Origin: Candidatus Kaelpia aquatica | Lineage (GTDB): Bacteria; Omnitrophota; Gorgyraeia; Kaelpiales; Kaelpiaceae | DNA length: 53,877 nt | Assembly (NCBI GenBank): GCA_030765335.1 | Contig: JAVCCU010000038.1 | Location: 1 to 53,877 of the forward strand | Direction: 5' to 3' | Shown: positions 1,724 through 39,846 of the stretch, one piece after another | Layout of the letters: every line of letters begins with the position of its first letter | Numbering within the stretch: position 1 is the stretch's first letter | Notes under the pieces: generated by a model | What the model was told of the DNA's origin: nothing | The model's database searches: none | Seen by the model: only the letters and a program-made list of their open reading frames with translations | Made by a program: the position numbers and the translations under genes

Positions 1724-4663
1724 CTAGGCTCCCTTAAGTGTAAAAGGACATATATTTTTAAAGACACAATAAGCACAGGCAAAATAACTTGGCTTGGGAT
1801 TGAAATCTCTATTTCTGATCCCTCCAGAAGCAATAGATATCTTCTCTTCTACATCTTTTAAATCCTGTTCTCTAAAACTAACTCTGCCTACAATTCCAGA
1901 ATCTATAAAGTGGAGCTCTAGAGAACTAGGAATACAGCCAAATATTTTCTTGTAAGCCAAGGCGTATATCCCAAGCTGCAAGCTCTCTTTTGCTTTCTTT
2001 TGAGCTTTACTGTAATCATCTACTTTTGAAGTCTTATAATCCACTATGCTTACCTCATTATCAACTATATCCACCCTATCAAAGCGTCCTGAAATCCGAT
2101 TGTAATCGATTAAGAACACGAACTCTTTTTCGACATAAGCAGGCTTTGACTTAGATAACTCTTCGTTCTCATAGAACCTCTTTAATAACTCTTGCCCCTC
2201 TTCAAATCTCATATCCTCATGCTCTCGCGTTAAGAAACCTTCAGATATCCAGGAACTCTTAAAAACATCCAGCATTAGATCCAAAGATACGCTTCTATCC
2301 TTTATCTTTTCTCTAAGGTATATCTGAATAGCATCGTGTATTGCTTTGCCATAGATAACGCTATGGTGTTGAATAACAGGGACTCTAAGAATATGAATGT
2401 ATTTATATTTAAGCGGACAGGTAAAATAGTCATCAACCTGCAGATGGCTTAAGTTCAGCAACTCATCGCTCCTAAGTGATTTAGGCTCTTCTATCTTTCC
2501 AAATTCTCGAGCCCTAGAACGCTGAATAACTTCCCAGGCTGAAGACTTGAGAGAGACCCCCGGTTGTTTAGGTAAGTCCAGTGCTTCCATTACAAATACA
2601 GATACTTTCTTTGCTCTCTTTGTACCATAATCATGGGCTGAGCTTAAAAAAAGTGACTCTCTAGCTCTTGTCGTCCCCACATAAAAAAGCCTTCGCTCCT
2701 CTTGAATATGAGGATCGCCCTCGGGAAGCCAATGCTCCTTCATTCTTAGCAGATCATCAGCTAAGGCTATCGCCTCCTTTCTCTTTCTTACTGGAAATCT
2801 ATCCGAGACAAGACTAACCAAAAAGACTACTCTAAACTCTAATCCTTTAGCCTTATGTATTGTTAAAACATTTACAGAATCAGTATCGTAATCAGGTCCA
2901 GGCAGAGAAGGATCGTCTCCAGCCTCTATCAGAGCATTTAAATAAGGAGCAAAGTTATAAATATCATCATTGGTTAAAACGCGGGAGGTACTTCTGACTA
3001 TCTCAAAAAACCTGGCAATATTTTTTATCTCAGACTCTGCCTCTAGACCTCCTGCAGTTAGAATTTTAAGATAGCCGCTCTGGTTTAAAATTCCAAATAG
3101 AAGCTGTCCTGTATTCAGATTCAAAGAGAGGCGAAAGAAATCATTTAGAATCTCTAAGAAAGAGCCTATTTCTCTAGAAGTCTCGTTGTCTATAAAAACT
3201 TCTGCTATACCGTCTTCTTTATAATGGGTAATCAAATAATAGAGAGACCGGCTAAGAAGCTTTGCTCTGCTCATCATCAAAGATAGAACCTCTATTTTAA
3301 AACTATAAAGCTTGGAAGATAGAATATAATATAGGCTAAGACTATCTTCTGGATTTGTTAAAAATTTAAGCCAAGAGATAAAAAATCGTATCTCCTCCTG
3401 AGAATAGAGACCCTCGCTGCCGGAAAACCTTAGCGGAATAGACCTCATATTCAACGATCTTATGAATGGGTCTGCATCTCTATTGGAACGTACTAAAATT
3501 GCAAAATCTTTATAGGAATACCCCTCCTCTTTTACCATTTTATCTATTCTTCCAGAGACCCAATCAGATTCATCAAATAGAGTATCGAAATTGTAATATT
3601 TAACCCCGTCACCTTCTTTAAGGTGGGCCTTCAGCCTCTTATCTAAATTCTCCTTAACTTCAAGCCTGTCGGGATTATTGTAAGATATGGAACGATAAGC
3701 AAAATCGAGTATCTTTTGGTTGGAACGATAATTATCTTTTAATATTATCTTCTCTGCATTTGGGTATATATCCATGAACTCCATAATATTGCTCAAGGCC
3801 GCCCCTCTAAACTTATATACTGATTGATCATCATCGCCACAGACAGTAATATTGCCTCTATCGCCAACCAAAAGCTTAAGTAGTTCAAATTGAGAATGGT
3901 TTGTATCCTGAAACTCATCTACGAGAATATATTTAAATCTATCCTGATACTCTTTAAGAATAGCTGGATGCTCTCTAAGCAGCTTTAAAGACAAGTAAAC
4001 CTGGTCACCAAAATCAATCTTGGACTCTCTCTGTAAAATCTCCTGATATCTCTGGTAGGACAACGCTACCTCTTCATCTTTTTTGATTCTCTCACTTAAA
4101 ATCTTATCATCAGGATTATTTTTTAACTCTCTTTTTAAATTATCAACGTAGTTAAGATATTCTTCAGGGGATAGATCTTCGTCTTTAGCGCGCGATATCA
4201 GAGCCAAGATAGATTCAACATACTTGGTGGGATCACCTAGAGGTCTAAAATAATTCAGAGGGAACTCAAAAAGATGTTCTCTAAAAAATATAATCTGCTC
4301 AGCGCGGGATAAAACATATAGATCAGGAGACAATCCAAGCTCAAGAGCATTCTCTTTTAAGACTCTGTCTCCAAAAGCATGAAATGTAGATATCGTCATA
4401 TCGGTATAACCATAGGGCATTAGAATATCCACCCTCTCTTCCATCTCCTCAGTAGCCTTCTCTGTAAAAGTCAGTGCCAAAATATCCTTAGGGTATGCTT
4501 TTTTAGAAGAGATGAGATCTATTATTCTTCTTGTTAATACCAGAGTCTTGCCTGTTCCGGCACCTGCTACGATCAGAAGCGGCCCATCTCCATGTTGAAC
4601 AGCCTTCTTCTGCTGAGCATTGAGACCCTCGGCAATCTTTGTTTCAATCGTTTCTATATTCAT
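1724..4663 (-). CDS. UvrD-family helicase fused to RecB/AddB-like nuclease with iron-sulfur cysteines
   Basis: A 979-residue superfamily 1 helicase joined to a PD-(D/E)XK nuclease. The Q motif lies near residues 15-22, Walker A GAGTGKT at 34-40, motif II DEFQDT at 249-254, and motif VI at about 657-669 (YVGTTRARE). The C-terminal nuclease has GRFDRVD (D862) and VDYKTSK (D875, K877). Four cysteines, C749, C963, C966 and C972, match the 4Fe-4S staple of AddB and AdnB. It likely processes DNA double-strand ends. No AddA, RecC or AdnA partner lies nearby, so it may act alone. No Shine-Dalgarno site is visible before the ATG. Confidence 0.9.
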   Translation of the reverse strand: MNIETIETKIAEGLNAQQKKAVQHGDGPLLIVAGAGTGKTLVLTRRIIDLISSKKAYPKDILALTFTEKATEEMEERVDILMPYGYTDMTISTFHAFGDRVLKENALELGLSPDLYVLSRAEQIIFFREHLFEFPLNYFRPLGDPTKYVESILALISRAKDEDLSPEEYLNYVDNLKRELKNNPDDKILSERIKKDEEVALSYQRYQEILQRESKIDFGDQVYLSLKLLREHPAILKEYQDRFKYILVDEFQDTNHSQFELLKLLVGDRGNITVCGDDDQSVYKFRGAALSNIMEFMDIYPNAEKIILKDNYRSNQKILDFAYRSISYNNPDRLEVKENLDKRLKAHLKEGDGVKYYNFDTLFDESDWVSGRIDKMVKEEGYSYKDFAILVRSNRDADPFIRSLNMRSIPLRFSGSEGLYSQEEIRFFISWLKFLTNPEDSLSLYYILSSKLYSFKIEVLSLMMSRAKLLSRSLYYLITHYKEDGIAEVFIDNETSREIGSFLEILNDFFRLSLNLNTGQLLFGILNQSGYLKILTAGGLEAESEIKNIARFFEIVRSTSRVLTNDDIYNFAPYLNALIEAGDDPSLPGPDYDTDSVNVLTIHKAKGLEFRVVFLVSLVSDRFPVRKRKEAIALADDLLRMKEHWLPEGDPHIQEERRLFYVGTTRARESLFLSSAHDYGTKRAKKVSVFVMEALDLPKQPGVSLKSSAWEVIQRSRAREFGKIEEPKSLRSDELLNLSHLQVDDYFTCPLKYKYIHILRVPVIQHHSVIYGKAIHDAIQIYLREKIKDRSVSLDLMLDVFKSSWISEGFLTREHEDMRFEEGQELLKRFYENEELSKSKPAYVEKEFVFLIDYNRISGRFDRVDIVDNEVSIVDYKTSKVDDYSKAQKKAKESLQLGIYALAYKKIFGCIPSSLELHFIDSGIVGRVSFREQDLKDVEEKISIASGGIRNRDFNPKPSYFACAYCVFKNICPFTLKGA

Positions 4664-24366: not shown

Positions 24367-24693
24367 TTAATACTTATCTTTAATCAGCATCCAGAAAGAA
24401 TGCTGATAGGATATGAGCGAATATTTATTATCTTGCTGAGGAATCTTTAATATTCCAACAATCTTCCACTTGAAAAGTTTTCTTTTGCTCTGAATATTCT
24501 TATAGACATACATTTGAGGTTTAAAGCTGTACTCATATACAGGCTCTCTATCTTCGTGGCTTAAAAGCACATTGTAAGAACTACTCCTGCGAGAATAGAC
24601 CCAGACTCCATCTTCAGATACTTTCTCTGTAACTCTGACCTTCCTATTGTCGGTCTTAGGCTGAGTCTGTTTTGCAAATGTTATACTATGCAT
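24367..24693 (-). CDS. small protein of unknown function
   Basis: A 108-residue basic protein that I do not recognise. It has no signal peptide or membrane helix. It is rich in Lys, Tyr and Ser, with aromatic stretches such as VWVYSRRSSSYNV and HSFWMLI in a strand-like pattern. A GGAGGAG ribosome site stands ahead of the ATG, which supports real translation. It starts three bases after the stop of the upstream small gene, so the two form a unit. Confidence 0.6.
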   Translation of the reverse strand: MHSITFAKQTQPKTDNRKVRVTEKVSEDGVWVYSRRSSSYNVLLSHEDREPVYEYSFKPQMYVYKNIQSKRKLFKWKIVGILKIPQQDNKYSLISYQHSFWMLIKDKY

Positions 24694-24696
24694 TTT

Positions 24697-24999
24697 CTAA
24701 CTCTCCTCCATCTCTGATATGTAACCATGAGACCAGCAGCTTCTGCGTACAGCCTCAAGATGCTGCGGAGAACCAGGTATAAACACTTTTTCCTTTAATC
24801 CTTTACCAGCTCTGTCAGGAATACTCACACGATAAGGACTAAAGAGAATATCCATAAGATCTCCATCTTTTTTACCTTTAAAAGACATCTCTTTCTCTTT
24901 TATCTCCAGCGTACCGCTGAAACCTCCCTTAGTATATATTACGACTACATCGTCCTTCCCCAGTCTCTCTTTCTGAATCTTGTAAAATTTTACTTTCAT
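24697..24999 (-). CDS. small protein of unknown function
   Basis: A 100-residue protein without recognised domains. The N-terminal half looks like alternating beta strands (VVVIYTKGGFSGTLEI, then EMSFKG). The C-terminal half has a helix with QHLEAVRRSCW. No membrane or export signal is seen. The open frame extends 12 codons further upstream, but the ATG at 24999 has an excellent AAGGAGG site, so I start there. It is paired with the small gene at 24367-24693. The upstream gap 25000-25188 shows only an A/T-rich inverted repeat. Confidence 0.65.
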   Translation of the reverse strand: MKVKFYKIQKERLGKDDVVVIYTKGGFSGTLEIKEKEMSFKGKKDGDLMDILFSPYRVSIPDRAGKGLKEKVFIPGSPQHLEAVRRSCWSHGYISEMEES

Positions 25000-25139
25000 C
25001 TTATACCTCCTTAGTTTACACCTTGTATTAAACAAATTTCATGCCAAGAAGAAGATATAAAAACAAATATCTCTAACTAATTGAAACAAAAGAGGAAACA
25101 GAAAATACCTATTGTATGATATTAAAAAAAAGGGGATAA

Positions 25140-28242: not shown

Positions 28243-29400
28243 TCAGGTGTCTATCGCCCTATTTATCCTCAGGAGTCCAAAGAATAACATCAATGCTCCC
28301 CAGGTAATGAATGAATATATTTCAAAAAGATCACCTGCCCAGCTATAAACTACAAACTCGCTTGTTAAAGAGCAAAAAACAAATGATAAGATAAGCATGA
28401 TTAAAGATACTCTGTCTTTAATCTTCTTTTCAAAAATAAAATAAAACATGGTCATAGCTGGGATAAGAAGCCAGACGAAAGAGTTCTTCCAACCATTAGG
28501 ATTAAGAAGGGCCACCAATATTGCAATAAGACCAAAGTTTATCCGCAAATCTCTTTTAGGTAATACGGCAATGATTAAAAGCATTAAAGACACGGCTATG
28601 AATACAATCGATATTGCCTTATCAGATAATTGAAATAACTGCGTTGAATACCATTGGTTTTGAGAAAAGAGCCTTCTAAACGCTGCCAATAAAGACTGAT
28701 TAGGATAACAAGTTATAGAATATTTATCCAATGAGCTCTGAAATAAAAAAACAATATTTCCCTGACTAAGCTGTACCATTCTTCTAAAACCAGTAATTAT
28801 AATCGGAGAAAAATAGAGCAATGGAGCAAAAAAGATTACACGCATTATATACTTATAATCTTTTTTCAAAATAAATAACGGCAAGAATAGAAGCGAGAGA
28901 TACTTGAACAAAATAGATGCAACAAGAAAAAAAGACGAGGCTATCTTTCTATCTTTAAGATAAAAATAAAGAGCAAAAACAGTAAAAGCTAAAAAAGATA
29001 TATTGGCTTGTCCTTGGTCTAAATTCTCCAGTATAAAGCGGAAGCTGTATATGAATCCTAATAACACAATCAAGATATAACGTTTTGAATTTAAGATTCT
29101 TACCAAACAATAAAAAATCAAAACCATAAAAACCCAATTAATAAGGTGCCAGAGCAAAGCTGCTTGATACTCACTGAGAAAAGATAATGGAGATATTAGA
29201 AAAGCGTAGAAAGGAGGATACTTAAAATACGAAACCTCACCTTCATAAGTATAGAGCTCCTCTCCAGACTTAAATCTTTCAGCAGTTGTATGAAGAACAT
29301 GAAAATCAGAATAATTCCTCTTAGGGGCTCTGTGTATATAACGAAATACCGAAACAACCATTAAAAGAACGATTAAGATTAACAGTATCTTGTTTTTCAT
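28243..29400 (-). CDS. GT87-family membrane glycosyltransferase
   Basis: A 385-residue integral membrane protein with about ten helices. The first outer loop has NYSDFHVLH and GEELYTYEG followed by FKYPPFYAFLISPL, the pattern of GT87 (DUF2029) mannosyltransferases that use polyprenyl-phosphate sugars. LNPNGWKNSFVWL is another family block. It overlaps the radical SAM gene by four bases and ends the chain that began at leuD. The sugar and acceptor are unknown. The GT2 protein upstream could make its lipid-linked donor. Confidence 0.8.
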   Translation of the reverse strand: MKNKILLILIVLLMVVSVFRYIHRAPKRNYSDFHVLHTTAERFKSGEELYTYEGEVSYFKYPPFYAFLISPLSFLSEYQAALLWHLINWVFMVLIFYCLVRILNSKRYILIVLLGFIYSFRFILENLDQGQANISFLAFTVFALYFYLKDRKIASSFFLVASILFKYLSLLFLPLFILKKDYKYIMRVIFFAPLLYFSPIIITGFRRMVQLSQGNIVFLFQSSLDKYSITCYPNQSLLAAFRRLFSQNQWYSTQLFQLSDKAISIVFIAVSLMLLIIAVLPKRDLRINFGLIAILVALLNPNGWKNSFVWLLIPAMTMFYFIFEKKIKDRVSLIMLILSFVFCSLTSEFVVYSWAGDLFEIYSFITWGALMLFFGLLRINRAIDT

Positions 29401-32330
29401 TCTTCTAAACCAATCTTATAATTAAAGTCTAACGGTTTTCCACTTTTAAGAAACAGGTTATTAAAAACAACACAGACAATCTTGCCTTCTGCAATATTTA
29501 AATCAGGAACTTCTATTTGAAAAAATCCCTGCTTAGATTTAGAGAATGCAAGAGCAGGAAGACTGTTCTGGCTAGAGTTTAACAATATTTTATTATCATT
29601 ACTTTTTGTAAGAGGAAGATAGCCCCATCTATCTTTAACATTGTCCGGCAAACCGCCCTTAAATGGCCCCAAAGACCAAGAGTCATATTTTTTATTTAAA
29701 AAAATACCAATCTTCAATTCTTTTAACTCTGTATTCTCTAAGGAGTAAACTCTAAAACTCCATAGAATATTGTTTCTCTTAACTCTTATCTTCAACTCTA
29801 TTTGAAAACATATATTCTCCCAATAGAGATCAAATATATCGCAATTTTTATCACCTACAGAGCTCCAAATAGCATCTCTACTGTCCAATATCCTGTCATT
29901 ATGGTGGCATGTTACAACAACCCCGCATTCAGATGTTATTTCACTTTGCTTATAGTACAACTTTACACCTTTATCTATAATCAGATCCAAAAAACTGGAT
30001 CTCTTAAGAGATAGAGGCTCCTTCTCTTCATTAAGCTCATCCCCAGCTCCAACAATTTGAAACTCCTTTTTCTCCAATATCTCCTTATCTTCTTTTATCT
30101 TCAAATAAGATTTGGACATTTCTCTAAAACCAAGAAAAAGTTTAACATCAAGCTTATTATTGCTGCAGGTCCTAATAATTTTATTTCTAAAGGCTAGGAA
30201 TCTAAAGCTATACTTTGTAAGAGAACTCTCCATCCTCAGACTTAAAGGTATAGAGCTTTCAATCTTGCTCATCTCAACCCCAAAAGGAGACTCTCCTTCT
30301 GTCATAGCCCAAACACTCTGAACATCACCTAGATCTAAGCTCTTCCAATTATCATCTAAAATAGGAAATTCTCCCTGATAAGATTTGGAATACCAATATT
30401 TATAAAACTCTGAGAGCATCAGCCCCATCTTAGCATCGTTAATAGTATAGTTTTTAGCCTTAAAACAAACCTTAATATGCCAATGCAATCCTTCGGGTTT
30501 AAGCTCTAAGATCCACTTATGTTCTATGGCTACATCACCCATATTGATCATAATCTCAATCCTATTTAAACCTATCTTCTTAATATCCCATACATATCTA
30601 GATGTATCGTACCAATGATCTTTAATCAAAAAAGCAACATTTAATCCTGGGCCTGCAGTAATACACTTATGCTTTAAAAATATCTTTACAAAACCTTCCC
30701 TGCTGCATTTAACGCTAAGATCCCCGAAAGTAAGGATCTGTCTGCTCCTTATATATTCAATAGCCTTCTTTACTTTCTTGTCCTTAGTGGCATAAACATT
30801 TATAATCGGCTCACTCCTGAATAGTCCAAGTCTCTGCAAGAAATAAAGCGTCTTTACTAGCCTCTTGAGTCTTACTGGTTTTGTGTTTCCGCTTTTATCA
30901 ACAAATTCTGAAATATCCACTCCTTTCATATCTTTTACGGCTGAACTTATGCCAAAAATATTATAGTACCTAGGAATAAAAGCCTTTTTTAATGAAATAA
31001 ACTTAAAACTCTGAGGGAATTTTGGAAAATAAATATTAAATTTTTCAGGCTCCATTCCAAGCGCTGCCGTAGGATTAATAAATAGAGTAGAGACATTGAT
31101 GATATTTTCTATATAAGCTCTATTTCTCTTTACAAAGCGGAGAGTCTGCTGGAACTCTCTTCTGCCTTCCCCAGGATAACCTATAATTATGTTAAAAGTA
31201 GCCTTCATACCTGCTTCCTTTGTCAATCTTAAGACTCGCTCAGCATCAGAAGTATTATAGATTTTTCTCATCACCTTTAAAACCTTATCTGACCCACTCT
31301 CTATTCCATAACACAGAGATACGCAGCCTGCATCTTTAAGGCTCTTTAATAACTCTAAATCCATATCCCCTCTGGCAACAGCATAACTGCCCCATTGTAT
31401 ACTAAGAGACTCTTTTTTGATAAGCTCAGCAAGCTCTCTAAGTTTTTTTAGATTTCCATTACAAAGCAAGTCATTGAAGGAGAAATTCCTTACACCATTT
31501 TCTTTTATATGGAACTTTATCTCATCGACTATATTCTTTGGATCTCTCATCCTAAAAGGGGCGCACATAAAATGATCTACACAAAAAGTACACTTAGAGA
31601 TGCAGCCGCGGCTAGTCAACAGAGGTAGAGTTCTAGTCTGTTTTTCACCAAATCCATAGTCATTTAAATCTAGATTTTTAAAATCTGGATAAGGAATGGT
31701 ATTTAAATCAGATATTGGATCAGCCGGACTATTGTCAATCTCTTTTTTATCTTTTACAAATATAGTGCCTGGAATATTTTCTAGACTAGATTTCTTATAA
31801 AAACTTTCTACTATTTTATAGAATGGGCCCTCCCCTTCTCCTAAAACAAAGATATCTATCACCCCAGGATCAATAACGCTACGATCAAAATCCCAAAAAC
31901 AGCCTGGACCACCTGCAACTAATAACTTATCGCTATTTTTACTCTTAATAATTTTAGCAATGTGATTCACAACGTAGATGCTTAAGTAATTGGCAGAGAA
32001 CCCTATAATAGGTTCTGGGCGCTTAAGAATTATATCGATTAATTCATCAATCTCTTTGGAAAAACTACTTATCAAAAGACCTACTATATCTAGCTGCGGC
32101 AGACTGCTTGTAATGCTTATATCCCAAAACTTCTTCTTCTCATCAGAGACATTATTGTATAGTTTAGCATTAAAATCAAAGAGCAACGTCTTATATCCCT
32201 TAGATTCCATATAGCTTGATATATAAGATATACCCAGAGGAGGCATCCAAGGATGCCAAGTGTGGACCATTAAAAGCAGCAGATCCGATTTAGTGCCGTC
32301 AATAAGCGGCTGAAACATTTTCATATTCAT
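29397..32330 (-). CDS. B12-binding-type radical SAM protein with duplicated C-terminal domain
   Basis: A 977-residue protein. Residues 1-190 resemble the B12-binding domain of radical SAM enzymes (WMPPLGISYISSYM opening, LLVAGGPG), though no DxHxxG motif is seen. The radical SAM core follows, with C243, C247 and C250 in SRGCISKCTFC. After about residue 520 come two regions that resemble each other (about 525-730 and 780-977), both strand-rich, with a Y.W...G...P...W pattern. I do not recognise that domain. It overlaps GT39 and GT87 genes, so a role in modifying the same glycan or lipid is likely. Confidence 0.75.
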   Translation of the reverse strand: MNMKMFQPLIDGTKSDLLLLMVHTWHPWMPPLGISYISSYMESKGYKTLLFDFNAKLYNNVSDEKKKFWDISITSSLPQLDIVGLLISSFSKEIDELIDIILKRPEPIIGFSANYLSIYVVNHIAKIIKSKNSDKLLVAGGPGCFWDFDRSVIDPGVIDIFVLGEGEGPFYKIVESFYKKSSLENIPGTIFVKDKKEIDNSPADPISDLNTIPYPDFKNLDLNDYGFGEKQTRTLPLLTSRGCISKCTFCVDHFMCAPFRMRDPKNIVDEIKFHIKENGVRNFSFNDLLCNGNLKKLRELAELIKKESLSIQWGSYAVARGDMDLELLKSLKDAGCVSLCYGIESGSDKVLKVMRKIYNTSDAERVLRLTKEAGMKATFNIIIGYPGEGRREFQQTLRFVKRNRAYIENIINVSTLFINPTAALGMEPEKFNIYFPKFPQSFKFISLKKAFIPRYYNIFGISSAVKDMKGVDISEFVDKSGNTKPVRLKRLVKTLYFLQRLGLFRSEPIINVYATKDKKVKKAIEYIRSRQILTFGDLSVKCSREGFVKIFLKHKCITAGPGLNVAFLIKDHWYDTSRYVWDIKKIGLNRIEIMINMGDVAIEHKWILELKPEGLHWHIKVCFKAKNYTINDAKMGLMLSEFYKYWYSKSYQGEFPILDDNWKSLDLGDVQSVWAMTEGESPFGVEMSKIESSIPLSLRMESSLTKYSFRFLAFRNKIIRTCSNNKLDVKLFLGFREMSKSYLKIKEDKEILEKKEFQIVGAGDELNEEKEPLSLKRSSFLDLIIDKGVKLYYKQSEITSECGVVVTCHHNDRILDSRDAIWSSVGDKNCDIFDLYWENICFQIELKIRVKRNNILWSFRVYSLENTELKELKIGIFLNKKYDSWSLGPFKGGLPDNVKDRWGYLPLTKSNDNKILLNSSQNSLPALAFSKSKQGFFQIEVPDLNIAEGKIVCVVFNNLFLKSGKPLDFNYKIGLEE

Positions 32331-34023
32331 ATACTTTGCAGTGATATGCAGCTACATCAAAATCAAACATTTTTTTAGCTCTCTCTTTTAAAAGCTGAGA
32401 AAATTCATCTAAAAGCTCAGCCGTTATAGGGTGATCTTCAAAATCATCTTTTCTTAAAAACAGCCCTTCACGTTTTTTAAATATCCAATCTTTATCAAAA
32501 AGTGTATCTCCTCCAGGCTCTCGATTTCTATATTCAATAAATAAAATTATATATTTACCATGGGTATCTGTCCACCAATGATAAGCCGAGACCCATTGAT
32601 CATATAAATCATGGGTTAAAATTCTATAGCCCTTGCTATGCGCTTTTATCTCAATCCAGAATTGCATCCCGACAGGACCATTCTTAATGCCAGCTGAACG
32701 GACAATCAAGCAATTATACTGACCAGGGGCTAAATAGTTTTCTAAATTTTCATAAAAAGAATCGGCTATATCAGAATTGTTCGCTTCAAAGTCTCTTAGA
32801 ATATTATCACCGCTACTAATGGCAAATAGCTTATCATAGAGAGGCTTCTCTCCCTCAGAGAACGCCAATAGATAGACCCGAAAAACTAATATAATTAAAA
32901 ATAATGATCTAAAAAAGATAGTCCAAAACGGTTTTTTAAACCTTAACCCTATTACAGTCATAATAGCAATAACCGGAATAAGAGGAAGAACATATCTAAT
33001 CTGATGAACTCTAAACAAGCAAGATAATGCTAGGAGCGGAAAGAACAACCAGGATAACGCAATTTTTTTATTGGGTATAGATCTATTAAAAATATATCTA
33101 AAAACCGAAAATACTGAAAAACAACTAATCAGAAGTCCAAAACCACTTAGATAAAGATATTTAAAATAAAAAAGGTAATAACTTAAAGATCCTAAATCTT
33201 CATAAGGAGCACTCTCGAAATGCTTGTAATCAGATGCTGTATGCGTCCTTAAAGCCACTAATAGGTCGTCATACTTCCCTTTCCACCATAAGCCGCCTAC
33301 TTGAAAAGTAAAGATCAAGAATAGAGAAAAATTGGCAAGCAGCTTAAAGAGCGGCACATAGTTACCGTCGCGCCTAATCTCTTTCGACAACGAACTAAAC
33401 AAATATATAGATAGAGGTAATAAAACAAAAATCACAACCTGCCCCTTGATCAATAAGCCAATTCCAAGTGCAGAACCTGCTAATATTGAATAAACAGTCT
33501 TCTTAAATCCATCTGTCTTTAAAAGTAAGAAGAAAAACAGAACAACTATGCTCATGAGCGGAATATCTAAGCCATAGCTCTGCATAGCTCTTATAATGAT
33601 AGGGTAAAGCGGAAGAACAAGTGTGACAAAAAGAGCTTCTCTATTATTAGCTCCAAGTTTTAAAGCCAGTAGAAAACTAAAAACCATAAAAATTATCAAG
33701 TACAATATATTTGCCATTTTTATGCTAAAAGCGGACAACCCAAAGATAAACACGAAAGGTAGTGAGCTTAAATTAAGCAGCTTAGGCCAATAGACTGTTC
33801 CTTCAGAGAAAACATTCTTAAATTCAAATATTTTATCTAAAATAGACAACTCAGAATTATGTAATAAATCTATTGTATTGCCATAAAACTGAACACAGAA
33901 CATAGCATGGTTGGGGGCATCTATAGTAGAGAACCTTGGATTAGAGGCAATAATACAGATAGCTGCAATAGAGTAAATTAAGACAACAAAGAGCAGTATT
34001 ACAAACCATTTATTCTGCTTCAT
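32299..34023 (-). CDS. GT39/ArnT-like membrane glycosyltransferase
   Basis: A 574-residue membrane protein with about ten helices in the first 400 residues and a soluble C-terminal part. The first loop has STIDAPNHAMF, matching the conserved acidic and His site in PMT_2/ArnT enzymes, and YWPKLLNLSSLPFVF follows. Such enzymes move a sugar from a polyprenyl phosphate to a lipid, glycan or protein outside the membrane. It overlaps asnB by 14 bases and the radical SAM gene by 32. The acceptor is not readable. Confidence 0.78.
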   Translation of the reverse strand: MKQNKWFVILLFVVLIYSIAAICIIASNPRFSTIDAPNHAMFCVQFYGNTIDLLHNSELSILDKIFEFKNVFSEGTVYWPKLLNLSSLPFVFIFGLSAFSIKMANILYLIIFMVFSFLLALKLGANNREALFVTLVLPLYPIIIRAMQSYGLDIPLMSIVVLFFFLLLKTDGFKKTVYSILAGSALGIGLLIKGQVVIFVLLPLSIYLFSSLSKEIRRDGNYVPLFKLLANFSLFLIFTFQVGGLWWKGKYDDLLVALRTHTASDYKHFESAPYEDLGSLSYYLFYFKYLYLSGFGLLISCFSVFSVFRYIFNRSIPNKKIALSWLFFPLLALSCLFRVHQIRYVLPLIPVIAIMTVIGLRFKKPFWTIFFRSLFLIILVFRVYLLAFSEGEKPLYDKLFAISSGDNILRDFEANNSDIADSFYENLENYLAPGQYNCLIVRSAGIKNGPVGMQFWIEIKAHSKGYRILTHDLYDQWVSAYHWWTDTHGKYIILFIEYRNREPGGDTLFDKDWIFKKREGLFLRKDDFEDHPITAELLDEFSQLLKERAKKMFDFDVAAYHCKVYEYENVSAAY

Positions 34024-35875
34024 TTTTCATAGACCATATAAAGAAAATTAAAATATTCCAAAGTATTTTACGATTATTCTTCTTATATTGCAAATGTTCT
34101 GACAATACGCTCTTAATATAACTTCTATTTAGATATTCTAAGCTGCTATCATTTTGAATAAAATCATTTAGCACATCTTTCAGATCAAACCTCAACATGC
34201 TTGCAACAGGTATACTGAACCCTGCTTTCCTTTTTTTGATAATCTCAGGAGGAAGCATATCGCCATAAGCATGCCTTAATATATATTTTGTGTTTTTTAG
34301 ATTACGCAGCTTTAAATTTTCAGGAATCGAAAGAGCAAATTCAACTAACTCTCTGTCCAAATAAGGCACCCTAACTTCTAATGAATTACGCATACTTGCA
34401 AAATCAGTCTTATACAGAATATCATTACTAAGGTAGCTATAGATATCGAACTGCTGAATTCTCTGCAATCCTTCGGATTTTGTAATAAAATTATCCTGAA
34501 TAAAATCTATATATTCATTCTCTACATCTTCATGGCGCTCAGACAGAAGACGCTTTCTCTCTTTTCCAAAACTCTCCATCCAAGCAGCATGCCTTATTAA
34601 ATCGTTTATACTCTGAGACCGACTAAATCTATCTAAGCAAAAATTTAAACTAAAGTATCTATCTGAGGCAGGAGTAAAAAGCAGCATTGTTCTTAATATC
34701 CCCTCTCTTAATTTTAAAGGTACGGTCTTATAAATAGAGAATATCCTGTGGGCAATATAGGTCTGATAACCGCAGAATAATTCATCTCCACCATCTCCAG
34801 AGAGAGAGACTTTTAAATATTTAGAAGTAAACTCCGATAAAAAATACGTTGGCAAGAGAGAGTGATCAGCAAATGGCTGATCTAGTTCAGAAACAATATT
34901 CTCTAAATAGCTGAATAAAGAATCTAGATGAAACTCCTTAAAATTGTTTTTCAATCCCAGCTCCCCTGTAACCGAAGCTGCATATTTTGATTCATCAAAA
35001 CTACTATCTTGAAAACCAATATTAAATGTATTAAAAGCTCCTATATGATCTTTCATATGATAGGCTACGATGCTTGAATCAAGGCCCCCGCTTAATAAAA
35101 GGCCCGGCTCAACGTCAGACACAAGATGTTTTTTAACCGATTCTGATATCTTATCTTTAATGTCAGAGACTAAATCACCTTTTCTCTTAACACTATAGTC
35201 AGATATACTCAAAGTATAATACTTCTTTAATTTAAGTCCTTTACTTTTTGAAAAAGTAAGATAGTGTGCCGGCAAGAGCGAAGATATGCTCTGATATATC
35301 GTATGGGGTGACGGTATATAATCTAACCAAAAATATAGATTTAAAGCTTTGTTGGATATGTCAGGTCTATATCCTAATAATTTTACAATAGCTTTAATCG
35401 AAGATGAGAATATAAATCCATCACCGCTATTAAAATAAAAAAGCGGTTTAATTCCAAATCTATCTCTTGCAATAAATAAGCTCTTGTCCCTACTATCATA
35501 GATAGCGAATGCAAACATGCCGTCAAGATAGCCCAAACAATCAATACCTCTATCTTCATACAAATGAAGAATGACCTCTGTATCAGTATCTGTTTTAAAT
35601 AGATGGCCCTTTGATTTAAGCTGGGCTTTTAGATTCCTGTAATTATATATCTCCCCGTTAAATACTATGCTTAAAGTACCGTCTTCGTTGCATATAGGCT
35701 GGCTTCCGTCTTCTAACCCTATAATCTTGAGTCTACGGCAGCCTAGCTTAACCTCTCCTGCTAAAGAAAATCCGAGCTCATCAGGACCACGACTATAAAG
35801 AGTGCTAAGAGCTCTTTTAAACCTCTCCCCGTTATCACCGATGTCGCAACCTAGTGAGCCAAGAATTCCACACAT
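34010..35875 (-). CDS. asnB: asparagine synthase (glutamine-hydrolysing), AsnB-type
   Basis: A 621-residue glutamine amidotransferase. The N-terminal class II glutaminase has the nucleophile C2 (MCGILGSLG), FNGEIYN at about 72-78 and DTEV near 98-101. The synthetase half has the ATP loop LLSGGLDSS at about 260-268 and LSGDGGDELF. It could make asparagine, but AsnB relatives in glycan clusters amidate sugar acids instead. Placement between two glycosyltransferase genes favours the second role; this is inference. It lies two bases after the GT2 gene. Confidence 0.9.
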   Translation of the reverse strand: MCGILGSLGCDIGDNGERFKRALSTLYSRGPDELGFSLAGEVKLGCRRLKIIGLEDGSQPICNEDGTLSIVFNGEIYNYRNLKAQLKSKGHLFKTDTDTEVILHLYEDRGIDCLGYLDGMFAFAIYDSRDKSLFIARDRFGIKPLFYFNSGDGFIFSSSIKAIVKLLGYRPDISNKALNLYFWLDYIPSPHTIYQSISSLLPAHYLTFSKSKGLKLKKYYTLSISDYSVKRKGDLVSDIKDKISESVKKHLVSDVEPGLLLSGGLDSSIVAYHMKDHIGAFNTFNIGFQDSSFDESKYAASVTGELGLKNNFKEFHLDSLFSYLENIVSELDQPFADHSLLPTYFLSEFTSKYLKVSLSGDGGDELFCGYQTYIAHRIFSIYKTVPLKLREGILRTMLLFTPASDRYFSLNFCLDRFSRSQSINDLIRHAAWMESFGKERKRLLSERHEDVENEYIDFIQDNFITKSEGLQRIQQFDIYSYLSNDILYKTDFASMRNSLEVRVPYLDRELVEFALSIPENLKLRNLKNTKYILRHAYGDMLPPEIIKKRKAGFSIPVASMLRFDLKDVLNDFIQNDSSLEYLNRSYIKSVLSEHLQYKKNNRKILWNILIFFIWSMKNEAE

Positions 35876-35877
35876 AT

Positions 35878-36819
35878 TTAATTATGCCTTTCTTTGATTT
35901 TATAGGGGAAGCCGTACTTAGTCTGATAATATATGCGCACAATAATCTCAGCTAATATACCAATCATGATAAAAAGAATACCTACAGTTAGCAATGTTAC
36001 AGCTATAAAAAACAGGGGGCTTAACCACAGGCCCTCAAAAACAATCTTTCTATAAACAACAAGCAAAAATATAAAGAAAGAGGTGCTGATGCTTACAAAT
36101 CCTGTGCCTCCAAATACATATATAGGCCTGGAAGCAAAGCTCGTAAAAAACTTATATAATATTAAATCCATTATCAGTTTTATAACCCTAGTTAAGCCAT
36201 ATTTAGAATACCCTCCTATTCTTTTACGATGATTGACCTTAATCTCAGCAACCTTAGCCCCCATCTCAGCAAGATATACAACAAATATCCTATGCATCTC
36301 ACCTAAGAGCTTGGGATTTTCAATCCATTCCTTTCTGTATATTTTCAAACTACAGCCTACATCATGGATCTTAAGTCCTGTCGTTTTTCTAATCAAAAGA
36401 TTGCCAAAATAAGAAAAGAATCTTCTTACTAACGAATCCTTCCTTCTAGATCTAAAACCGCTTACAACGTCATAACCTTCGTCAATTTTGGATATTAATT
36501 TAGGAATATCAGCAGGATCATTCTGTCCATCACCATCTATAACCAGGACAAGATCACCGCTAATATTCTCAAAACCAACCTGAATTGCCGCTGTCTGCCC
36601 GTAGTTCTTAAGGAGCCTGATGGCTTTTATTTTTTCATCTGAGCTAGAAGCATTCAATATTAATTCCCAACTTCCATCCTTACTACCATCATCTACAACC
36701 ACTATCTCGTAATCATAAGGCATCTCAATTAAGACATTCCTCAGCTCCTCAAATAACTGAGAGAGACTCTCTTTTTCATCGTAAACCGGTATTACAACGG
36801 AAATCTTATATAAATTCAT
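35878..36819 (-). CDS. GT2 polyprenyl-phosphate glycosyltransferase (DPM1/ArnC/GtrB-like)
   Basis: A 313-residue GT-A enzyme that loads a sugar onto polyprenyl phosphate at the inner membrane face. SVVIPVYDE opens the domain, VVVDDGSKDGS binds the nucleotide, and the metal-binding motif is VIDGDGQNDP. Two C-terminal helices (about 230-255 and 265-290) anchor it, as in GtrB. It overlaps the methyltransferase by four bases (ATGA). It is the natural donor source for the two GT-C proteins downstream. Confidence 0.88.
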   Translation of the reverse strand: MNLYKISVVIPVYDEKESLSQLFEELRNVLIEMPYDYEIVVVDDGSKDGSWELILNASSSDEKIKAIRLLKNYGQTAAIQVGFENISGDLVLVIDGDGQNDPADIPKLISKIDEGYDVVSGFRSRRKDSLVRRFFSYFGNLLIRKTTGLKIHDVGCSLKIYRKEWIENPKLLGEMHRIFVVYLAEMGAKVAEIKVNHRKRIGGYSKYGLTRVIKLIMDLILYKFFTSFASRPIYVFGGTGFVSISTSFFIFLLVVYRKIVFEGLWLSPLFFIAVTLLTVGILFIMIGILAEIIVRIYYQTKYGFPYKIKERHN

Positions 36820-37601
36820 TTCTCTAATACTACAATTATTACCCCAGGATATTTAAATTGCGGCAGCTCTTCATCCTCTCCCTTATAGTAGGTCTCCCAA
36901 AATAACTTAGAGAAGAGGCGTGCCCAGGTATTTTTATGTTTTGCAAAAGGCATCTTAAAGAAAAAAAACTTTCCTAAAGAAGGACATCTCTCACCAATAA
37001 CATAGAAATATTTCAATCTTAACTTAGAAGGCTCAACTATCCTTTTAAAAATACAATTTAACTCATAATCACGCTGAAAATACGCATGACCATTATTGTC
37101 AAGCAACCTCTCTTTTGTACCAGCCTGAGAGAAAGGCAGAGTCACAATAAGCCGTCCACCTTTTTTAAGTAAGACACTTGCTTTTGCTACCGCCTCCATA
37201 TCACCGCCAAACTTGAAATGCTCTAATGTTGAAACAGCTGTAATAAAATCAAAATAGTCTGTAGGAAAATCTATATCCTGAAAATTCCCCCAAATAATAT
37301 TCATATTCTCATCATCCATAAAATGCCTTGAGTCCAGAATTTGCCTATAAAAACTATCGAAATCACTATAAAATTCACCATTATCTACTATCCAGGTTTC
37401 AAGTCCTCTATAAAGGTAATATAGAGGCAAGAAGCTTTTACCACAACCTATATCAAGAATCTTTCCAGCTTTTTCAAAACCTATCTCTTTTAAAACCAAA
37501 GGGTATTCTAAAAGCTTATAGTAATAAAGACCTTCCTTATAATGGTCTTCTCCTAAAATCTTCAAAAAATCCTGCAGCTCTTTCATGCCTATCTTATTCA
37601 A
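36816..37601 (-). CDS. class I SAM-dependent methyltransferase
   Basis: A 261-residue methyltransferase. Motif I is KILDIGCGKSFLPLYYL, with an acidic residue in the next strand (WIVDNGEF), and FDFITAVSTLEHFKFGGD is the post-motif. GGRLIVTLPF is the last core strand. The start is TTG at 37601, with GGGAGGTG five bases upstream inside the truA end. It shares a TTGA overlap with truA. A sugar, lipid or protein target is possible; context suggests the glycan. Confidence 0.82.
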   Translation of the reverse strand: MNKIGMKELQDFLKILGEDHYKEGLYYYKLLEYPLVLKEIGFEKAGKILDIGCGKSFLPLYYLYRGLETWIVDNGEFYSDFDSFYRQILDSRHFMDDENMNIIWGNFQDIDFPTDYFDFITAVSTLEHFKFGGDMEAVAKASVLLKKGGRLIVTLPFSQAGTKERLLDNNGHAYFQRDYELNCIFKRIVEPSKLRLKYFYVIGERCPSLGKFFFFKMPFAKHKNTWARLFSKLFWETYYKGEDEELPQFKYPGVIIVVLEK

Positions 37602-38332
37602 TATTTCACCTCCCAGAGAAAAAGACCTCTAGCTGGAGCAGTAGGCCCTCTTCTTAACCCGCTCTCAGATTGAAGGAGAGCTTTTAATCTTTTAGGCTCA
37701 AACTTACCTCTGCCAACCTCAACAAGAGTCCCTATCAGGAATCTTACCATCTTATAAAGAAATCCATCTGCCTCTATAAAAACACTGCAATAATTACCAT
37801 CTTTTTTTAAAAAAGCTTTAGAGACTGTTCTTTCTGTACCCTTAACGCTACTTCCTTTAGCCTGAAAATTTATAAAATCATGTTTACCTAAGATATATTT
37901 TAACTCTTTATTCATCTTATAGAAATCTAAATCTAAAGGCAGATGCCAGAAATATCTAGCTTTAAACGGAGAGATGAACTCTCCTGTAAATATATTATAC
38001 CTATACACCTTGCTTTTAACAGAGTAACGTGCATGAAAATCCAAGCTGACTCTCTGTGCAGATTTAATTCTAATATCTGAAGATAAGATCGAGTTCAAAG
38101 CCTTTTTGATATCAGCAGGAGATACAGTCTTATCTGTTTTAAAATTAGCTACTTGATATCTTGCGTGAACTCCAGCATCTGTCCTGCCTGAAGATATTAG
38201 ATTCACATCCTTCGACAGAATCTTAGATAGCCCTGATTCAACCTCGCCCTGAATAGTAGTCCCCTCTCTCTGTCTCTGCCAACCAGAAAAACAACTACCG
38301 TCATACTCTAGAACCAATTTAATATTTATAAT
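37598..38332 (-). CDS. truA: tRNA pseudouridine(38-40) synthase
   Basis: TruA modifies the anticodon arm of many tRNAs. The body is unmistakable: LEYDGSCFSGWQRQ, the catalytic Asp in SSGRTDAGVHA, and ARYFWHLP. From the conventional TTG at 38317 the first strand would be missing. Reading back in frame gives INIKLVLEYDG, the normal family opening, from an ATT at 38332 with AAGGAG five bases upstream. I therefore place the start at that ATT (244 residues). A neighbouring ATA at 38329 is a second candidate. Confidence 0.93.
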   Translation of the reverse strand: MINIKLVLEYDGSCFSGWQRQREGTTIQGEVESGLSKILSKDVNLISSGRTDAGVHARYQVANFKTDKTVSPADIKKALNSILSSDIRIKSAQRVSLDFHARYSVKSKVYRYNIFTGEFISPFKARYFWHLPLDLDFYKMNKELKYILGKHDFINFQAKGSSVKGTERTVSKAFLKKDGNYCSVFIEADGFLYKMVRFLIGTLVEVGRGKFEPKRLKALLQSESGLRRGPTAPARGLFLWEVKY

Positions 38333-38334
38333 TC

Positions 38335-39846
38335 TTACTCCTTATCAAAATGAATATCTCTTCTCCAGGGCCGCATAGCAAAAATCAGAGCAGCAAATAG
38401 AGTATAGAGAAGCCAATCCCTGCCTATGAGAAGCAATGCAACGGAAGAATAGCCTTCATAGGGATTTAAAATTTCATAGCTTAAATCATTGAAGAAGAGA
38501 ATCAAAAGCACACCTGGAACAACATATTTTACTGCTCCATCCCACCACGCTCCTATCTTAAGATCGGACACATTATTGATATGCTCTCTTAATTTACTAG
38601 CCTTATACACCCAAGCTACTAAAATAGTCTGAAGTATTCCAACCATTATCAGCCCATAGTGAGAGAGAAAATGATCGACTATATCTATCCAAAATAACCC
38701 TCCTCCAGTGGCAAATATCATAGAACCGAAAAAACCTAGAATACAGACTACGCTCGTAACAGTCTTTCTATTAAAATGAAACTTATCTATCAATGCAGAG
38801 TTAAAAGCCTCAACAATTGATATAGAAGACGATATTCCGGCAACACAAAGTGTTAAGAAAAATAGAAAACCAAATAGTTGAGGTAGAAACGGCAATAGAC
38901 TTATAGCTTGAGGGTACACTACAAATGCCAGCCCTATAGACTCTTTTACGACCTCATTAAATCCTACTCCGGTTTGATTGGCCATATAGCCTATAGTGGC
39001 AAAAACAGCGAGACCAGCAAAAAAAGAAAAGATAGAATTTAATCCGGCTATGCAATAAGAGTTTAATACTATGTCAGATTTTTTGGACAGATAAGACCCA
39101 TACGTTATCATTATTCCAAAACCGAGACTTAAGGTGAAGAATATCTGCGAGAAAGCCTCTATCCAGACCCGAGGTTCTCCAAGAAGAGAGAAATCTGGCT
39201 TAAGGTATACCCTTAAACCTTCTAAAGCACCGGGCAGCTTTATACTCCAAAAAACAAGAACAGCTGTTAAGAAGAATAGTAGAGGCATAAATATCTTGTT
39301 CGCCCTCTCTATTCCCTTCTCGATACCTAAAAAAACAATTATCCAATTTATAAACCACACAAAAGCAAGCGCTATCAATATCCCGAATCTGATATTACCT
39401 ATCTGAAACGGACCTTTGGTAACACCTAGAAACTGTTTGAAAAAGAAGCTATTAGGATCTGAGCCCCACTTTAGATCTAAAGAATACAAAAGATAATTAA
39501 AGCACCAGGAGATTATCACAGAATAGTAGAGAACTATTCCAAACATTACAAATATTACCGACCACCATCCTAACCATTCCCATCTGCGATTTATCTTTGC
39601 CAAGCTCATCGGAGCTGAGCCTCTCATCTTATGCCCGACCCCAATCTCAAGAATCATCAACGGTATACCTACAACTAAAAGAGCTATGAAGTAAGGGACT
39701 AAAAATGCTCCGCCGCCGTTCTTGTAGCAGAGATAGGAGAACCTCCAGATATTACCAAGACCTACTGCTGAACCTAGGGCTGCAAGTAGAAAACCTGTTC
39801 TGCTCTTCCACTGAGGGCGATGGGGTTGCATATATTCATTTTCCAT
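38335..39846 (-). CDS. neurotransmitter:sodium symporter family transporter
   Basis: A 503-residue LeuT-fold Na+-coupled transporter with about 12 helices. The first helix has the sodium and substrate site LAALGSAVGLGNIWRFSYL, followed by the NGGGAFLVPYFI block, both hallmarks of the family. Bacterial members carry amino acids. It lies 26 bases after asd and ends two bases before the truA start, so it is likely in the leuD-asd transcript. The substrate is not readable; a leucine or aspartate-family amino acid would fit its neighbours. Confidence 0.93.
   Translation of the reverse strand: MENEYMQPHRPQWKSRTGFLLAALGSAVGLGNIWRFSYLCYKNGGGAFLVPYFIALLVVGIPLMILEIGVGHKMRGSAPMSLAKINRRWEWLGWWSVIFVMFGIVLYYSVIISWCFNYLLYSLDLKWGSDPNSFFFKQFLGVTKGPFQIGNIRFGILIALAFVWFINWIIVFLGIEKGIERANKIFMPLLFFLTAVLVFWSIKLPGALEGLRVYLKPDFSLLGEPRVWIEAFSQIFFTLSLGFGIMITYGSYLSKKSDIVLNSYCIAGLNSIFSFFAGLAVFATIGYMANQTGVGFNEVVKESIGLAFVVYPQAISLLPFLPQLFGFLFFLTLCVAGISSSISIVEAFNSALIDKFHFNRKTVTSVVCILGFFGSMIFATGGGLFWIDIVDHFLSHYGLIMVGILQTILVAWVYKASKLREHINNVSDLKIGAWWDGAVKYVVPGVLLILFFNDLSYEILNPYEGYSSVALLLIGRDWLLYTLFAALIFAMRPWRRDIHFDKE

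Follow-up and report, generated by a model that had tools for sequence, protein, structure and literature searches.

The window analysed here, a stretch of 53,877 nucleotides corresponding to contig C38 of the Candidatus Kaelpia aquatica genome (1.34 Mb, 98% complete, 46 contigs), contains a glycan-related gene cassette that is probably a detached part of an ABC-dependent surface polysaccharide system, in which an all-beta domain of ~220 residues would serve as a glycan grip on both the exporter ATPase (Wzt) and radical SAM enzymes. This domain, here named BSD (a label coined in this analysis), is present as two tandem copies in the radical SAM protein of the cassette. What is new here is this glycan-associated domain, which links radical SAM enzymes with a polysaccharide exporter.

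Organization of the cassette

The preliminary description listed seven overlapping or nearly touching genes, and an ORF check with Pfam and NCBIfam support confirms each of them at its stated place on the minus strand, arranged as TruA, methyltransferase (MT), GT2, AsnB, GT39-like, radical SAM (rSAM) and GT87 (Table 1). From GT87 to TruA the successive gaps measure -4, -32, -14, +2, -4 and -4 bases, followed by 17 bases to the next gene, and the gene run continues upstream with a transporter, asd and leu-type genes. Co-directional gaps of at most 10 bases account for six of seven within the cassette and 21 of 38 elsewhere in the window; tight packing is a weak mark of a special operon, as most of the window is closely packed. 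The stretch from MT to GT87 is A+T-rich (34.4% G+C versus 37.8%), ranking second of 223 among the same-length stretches of the window with the lowest G+C.

Table 1. Cassette genes and the domains of the radical SAM protein, in window coordinates
Feature	Coordinates	Strand	Evidence
TruA, tRNA pseudouridine synthase	37598..38332	-	TIGR00071 above cut-off; start compared with two relatives
SAM-dependent methyltransferase (MT)	36816..37601	-	Methyltransf_23; motif LDIGCG; order kept in G001 and G003
GT2, ArnC/PgfS type	35878..36819	-	Glycos_transf_2, 113 bits
AsnB-type glutamine amidotransferase	34010..35875	-	Asn_synthase, GATase_7 and TIGR01536 above cut-off; 272.7 bits
GT39-like (PMT_2) GT-C membrane glycosyltransferase	32299..34023	-	PMT_2 27.4 bits, narrowly over cut-off 26.1
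Radical SAM protein, probably B12-type, 977 aa, two C-terminal BSDs	29397..32330	-	Pfam, structure model, tree
B12-binding-like Rossmann domain, residues ~15-180	31791..32288	-	AF2 model; Foldseek to TsrM, OxsB, CysS
Radical SAM core, residues ~190-430	31041..31763	-	PF04055 80 bits; C243-x3-C247-x2-C250
BSD copy 1, residues ~518-740	30111..30779	-	72-unit profile; phylum search E 5e-53
BSD copy 2, residues ~770-977	29400..30023	-	Profile match E 6e-48; same strand order in full-length model
GT87 GT-C glycosyltransferase	28243..29400	-	PF09594 78.5 bits

The GT2 enzyme contains a DGD motif and three hydrophobic stretches at its C-terminus that form a membrane anchor; it scores far under the cut-offs of the ArnC-like and PgfS models, and is probably a polyprenyl-phosphate sugar synthase. 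About 11 hydrophobic stretches are seen in the GT39-like enzyme by hydropathy. AsnB has an intact N-terminal Cys (the protein begins MCG) and an SGGLDS loop, and MT is a possible tailoring or capping methylase.

Conservation in related genomes

The second species of the genus (G001) keeps TruA-MT-GT2-AsnB-GT39-rSAM at 70-84% identity, has lost GT87 and carries a 649-aa protein in its place. In G003, which belongs to a different genus of the family, all seven genes are kept at 41-62% identity and a related 776-aa protein comes after them. GT87 is found only in the window's own genome and G003 among the five family genomes, with no match in G001, G002 (75% complete) or G004 (59% complete). The conserved family core is MT-GT2-AsnB-GT39-rSAM, present whole and in order in two relatives (G001 and G003). 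The expectation that the cassette stays together in relatives thus holds for the core and fails for GT87, which is variable, has no counterpart in three of the four close relatives and was rejected as a fixed member. TruA is kept in position but is a housekeeping gene near the asd and leu-type genes, at one edge of a variable slot, and it was rejected as a functional member.

Two further features were seen in these relatives. A protein of 512-776 aa, absent from the window, ends the cassette in three of them (L032 12377-14326; L033 24-1562; L034 13525-15855) and by eye looks like a PAS sensor. The rSAM gene of G004 (L035 794-3507) is broken, with two open frames and part of the radical SAM core missing between them, in an incomplete genome.

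The radical SAM protein

The full-length model contains a B12-type fold, a radical SAM barrel and two BSDs; most of the linker at residues 434-513 has low confidence and the pTM is 0.55, so the model does not fix how the domains are placed relative to one another or whether BSD presents a chain to the radical SAM site. No membrane segment was found in the protein. The B12-binding family PF02310 scores 22 bits in the N-terminus, under the cut-off of 32.1, and AprD4 has a similar N-terminal fold. The closest relatives of the N-terminal 430 residues by sequence are MgmA, AprD4 and CysS, and those of the N-terminal half by fold (Foldseek) are TsrM, OxsB, MgmA, CysS, AprD4 and TokK. The protein resembles the cobalamin-dependent enzymes TsrM, OxsB, CysS and MgmA, and also AprD4, in a B12-binding-like Rossmann fold, the core and the CX3CX2C motif (Foldseek E 1e-15 to 1e-19), but none of the named matches has BSD repeats, and the predicted substrate of the window enzyme is a polymer glycan. 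MgmA is a C-methylase, and AprD4 is a diol dehydratase whose target is the sugar moiety of paromamine; by analogy, the window enzyme might either methylate a sugar or carry out a deoxygenation-type step on it.

BSD, a domain without a database entry

The preliminary description did not mention this part of the radical SAM protein. Pfam finds no match in residues ~518-977, including when the last 483 residues were scanned alone. A search of the C-terminal half against 292 genomes of the class found it in 53, mostly as one 115-200-residue repeat within much larger proteins, and profile building gave a unit of ~220 residues present twice in the window protein. An alignment of 72 units (A1) was the basis of both the profile and an AlphaFold2 model. 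A1 has no match among PDB sequences (the lone one, at E 0.15, is a ribosomal protein), and searches of Pfam and NCBIfam gave just scattered single-member chance matches. BSD has no entry in either database, and its carriers are annotated just as ABC ATPase or radical SAM, with half left blank.

The BSD model (pLDDT 94.2) has one short N-terminal helix followed by a mostly all-beta fold. Foldseek matches it to galactose-mutarotase-like supersandwiches, which include GH94 phosphorylases, aldose epimerases, cyclic glucan synthase and OpgG (E ~1e-5 to 5e-4, TM 0.48-0.63), with 3q1n at E 9e-6 (TM 0.58-0.63); this similarity is weak, and placement in the galactose mutarotase-like superfamily is therefore a fold assignment only. 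Matches to P1, the periplasmic domain of YidC, and to a PBCV-1 capsid protein were taken as common sandwich topology only, and two matches at E≤0.001 in a viral fold library were judged to be generic beta folds. Trp occupies six of the 19 positions conserved at ≥60%, and only W95 and Y132 are near-invariant in the alignment. The window copies are divergent: with units from other families, copy 1 mostly shares 11-27% identity.

BSD loci across the phylum

When 384 genomes of the phylum were searched with the BSD profile (E≤1e-5), 73 had the domain, including six that do not belong to the class of the window; none was found in plasmids. The loci of 43 genomes were inspected, with BSD presence as the sole selection criterion. 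BSD lies at the C-terminus of a Wzt-type ABC ATPase in 30 of these, usually in three copies, and on radical SAM/SPASM proteins in 26; a Wzm permease is present in 26, and at least two radical SAM domains in 38. The recurring architectures are Wzt-BSD3 (16), rSAM-BSD-SPASM-BSD (8), BSD-rSAM (7) and BSD3-SPASM (7). Two loci, L039 (1915 aa) and L073 (1865 aa), combine Wzt, BSD and radical SAM/SPASM in single chains, confirmed by Pfam for L039, and in L080 a GT39-like enzyme has a terminal BSD (GT39-BSD). Each module label rests on a profile grown from a single protein, which makes the small labels (GT4a/GT4b, UGM) approximate; by Pfam, the gene called UGM is FAD amine-oxidase-like. Several loci of family f17 have no exporter in the stretch covered, and their contigs are short.

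Other arrangements were also noted. A protein of ~1891 aa in L106 (G075:C161) has nine BSD copies and no further recognised domain, and rows of consecutive ~270-420-aa radical SAM/SPASM genes occur in L037 (11617-16906), L042, L089 and L099. A GDSL-type acylhydrolase lies among the f17 BSD-radical SAM genes of L036 (4812-7034), possibly for acyl modification of the polymer, and a second protein has a similar N-terminus.

The classical Wzt_C domain (PF14524) is not found above cut-off in any of 11 BSD genomes. Wzt proteins without Wzt_C occur, and its absence with BSD in its place is therefore read as a variant. BSD could alternatively be a docking or assembly domain, with the BSDs of Wzt, radical SAM and stand-alone proteins binding each other in a membrane-associated synthesis-export complex, as the long arrays, the stand-alone BSD proteins and the lack of conserved catalytic residues would allow; the YidC periplasmic domain has a similar, mutarotase-like fold and is not a sugar enzyme. 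We consider this unlikely, because the conserved positions are Trp-dominated, most of the Foldseek relatives act on sugars, and characterised Wzt proteins have at exactly this position a glycan-binding domain, which reads a chain end bearing a chemical modification and thereby permits export (PMC9445017).

A probable export locus in the same genome

A second contig of the window's own genome, C20, contains Wzm, a Wzt carrying a single BSD, a pair of stand-alone BSD proteins, two GT4 genes and GT2 genes; an ABC2 permease (PF01061, 45.5 bits) adjoins an ABC ATPase (PF00005, 75.6 bits). From its gene content the locus presumably exports a lipid-linked polysaccharide. It also encodes two giant proteins, at L029 8721-12656 and 12653-18412: one of 1311 aa, which combines a SPASM-type radical SAM module with two of the B12 type, and one of 1919 aa, in which there are four radical SAM domains.

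A maximum-likelihood tree places the radical SAM module of the window in a clade of 15 modules (support 100/100), whose members from families f3, f11, f17, f19 and f50 adjoin BSD-radical-SAM proteins, with Wzm and Wzt-BSD alongside in f3 and f50 and GT4-GT2-GT39 in f17. The orthologue in G214 follows Wzm, Wzt-BSD3 and BSD-rSAM-SPASM and has GT4 next to it, and that in G237 closes the row Wzm, Wzt-BSD2, BSD-rSAM. The f17 orthologue lies between rSAM-BSD-SPASM-BSD and GT4-GT2, which are adjoined by a carbamoyltransferase and GT39 where the contig extends. G013 has a related module, with GT4, GT2, GT39 and AsnB after it. Because orthologues in other families lie within such loci, the window cassette is best read as a relocated part of the export system, the remainder of which would be the C20 locus. 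The glycan-modification role first suggested for the cassette is supported, more strongly than the sequence alone allowed, by these neighbourhoods and by the kept order of the core; TruA is a housekeeping neighbour, and GT87 lies outside the conserved set.

The cassette and the Wzm/Wzt-BSD locus are nevertheless on different contigs, GT2 plus GT-C pairs serve protein and lipid A glycosylation, and GT39-like enzymes include protein mannosyltransferases. The cassette might on these grounds act alone, for example in protein O-glycosylation or in lipid modification by GT2 with GT39 or GT87, unrelated to the C20 polymer. We regard this as quite improbable, given that BSD elsewhere accompanies Wzm/Wzt or radical SAM arrays, that the rSAM orthologues lie within BSD or export loci, and that GT2 and GT39 adjoin these orthologues in f17 and, with AsnB, the related module in G013.

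Comparison with known systems

The cassette and BSD were compared with four kinds of characterised system besides the cobalamin-dependent enzymes. The first is Wzm/Wzt O-polysaccharide export (E. coli O9a, A. aeolicus), which likewise has an ABC2 permease and an ATPase with a C-terminal all-beta domain, and LpxC and a ligase-type gene in the genome; LpxC and a Wzy_C/O-antigen-ligase-type gene are each present in seven of seven genomes, and in G237 the ligase-type gene lies upstream of Wzm, two genes away. The classical domain, however, is the jelly-roll Wzt_C; here its place is taken by BSDs, numbering from one to five or more, which radical SAM and GT-C proteins carry as well.

The second is GtrB-type, three-component periplasmic glycosylation, in which a side branch is added from a polyprenyl-phosphate donor by a GT-C enzyme, sometimes with a carbohydrate-binding module (PMC11127046). 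The cassette resembles it by family in its ArnC/PgfS-like GT2 and GT-C enzymes, and the GT39-BSD of L080 is comparable to a GT-C that ends in a binding module. In contrast to that system, there is no flippase for the polyprenyl-phosphate donor among the seven cassette genes, and the GT2 and GT-C genes are linked with those for AsnB and a probable B12-type radical SAM enzyme.

The third is the exosortase/PEP-CTERM system. AsnB is related to the XrtA/PEP-CTERM amidotransferase (TIGR03108), but scores 453 bits against a cut-off of 817, and exosortase (PF09721) is found in none of seven genomes; this link was rejected. Co-occurrence with exosortase or O-antigen genes had been proposed as a check; the exosortase part fails, and an O-antigen-ligase-type gene is present.

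The fourth comprises the supersandwich domains themselves (the GH94 N-terminal domain, OpgG and aldose epimerases), which share the overall fold with BSD but at 7-12% identity and with catalytic residues that BSD does not conserve; BSD also differs in being used in tandem in the cytosol, where Wzt and radical SAM proteins carry it. That BSD is an active mutarotase- or epimerase-type enzyme partnered by the radical SAM domain is very improbable in spite of its fold match to the aldose 1-epimerases 3nre, 3q1n and 3k25, as the TM-scores are ~0.6 at that low identity and the alignment has no His/Glu/Asp catalytic columns (no acidic residue or His above 60%).

A proposed pathway

With BSD as a glycan grip, the domain would stand in place of the classical cap-binding domain of Wzt and select the finished lipid-linked polymer on the exporter ATPase, while on radical SAM enzymes it would hold the same polymer as the B12-type core modifies a sugar, by C-methylation or a deoxygenation/epimerisation-type step. 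If both loci serve one polymer, as we infer, four steps can be envisaged. In the first, the cytoplasmic GT4 and GT2 enzymes of the C20 locus would make a lipid-linked chain. The chain would then be tailored by the multi-radical-SAM proteins of C20 and the two-BSD radical SAM protein of the window, with AsnB amidating a carboxylated sugar and MT methylating. The product would be recognised by Wzt-BSD and exported by Wzm. In the fourth step the window GT2 would charge polyprenyl phosphate with a sugar, which the GT39-like enzyme (and GT87 where present) would transfer in the periplasm as a side branch.

We put forward tentatively, as a nearly balanced proposition, that these loci represent an undescribed class of polysaccharide assembly in which an exporter ATPase and radical SAM arrays share a carbohydrate-recognition domain, sometimes within one polypeptide, such that radical remodelling of the finished or growing polymer is physically coupled to its export. 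A literature search, with subscription papers and preprints outside its scope, returned nothing relevant on radical SAM enzymes with Wzt, O-antigen, exopolysaccharide or Omnitrophota. If the proposal is true, radical SAM chemistry on a lipid-linked polysaccharide, tethered through the domain of the exporter, would be a new route to surface-glycan diversity. It would also assign a role to many multi-radical-SAM proteins that are so far uncharacterised, in a phylum apparently without cultured members. BSD offers a handle for testing, its expected ligand being the exported glycan.

Other features of the window

TruA lacks a usual start codon at its expected N-terminus (window 38300-38345, minus strand). 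An ATT lies behind an AAGGAG ribosome-binding site before TruA in both species of the genus (G001: L032 ~3315-3340), a downstream TTG reads TTA in G001, and G003 has an ATG start; the comparison suggests a probable ATT start at 38332 that is conserved in the genus. Two conserved genes of 108 and 112 aa adjoin recR (window 24367-25035), and their order is kept in G001, G003 and G004.
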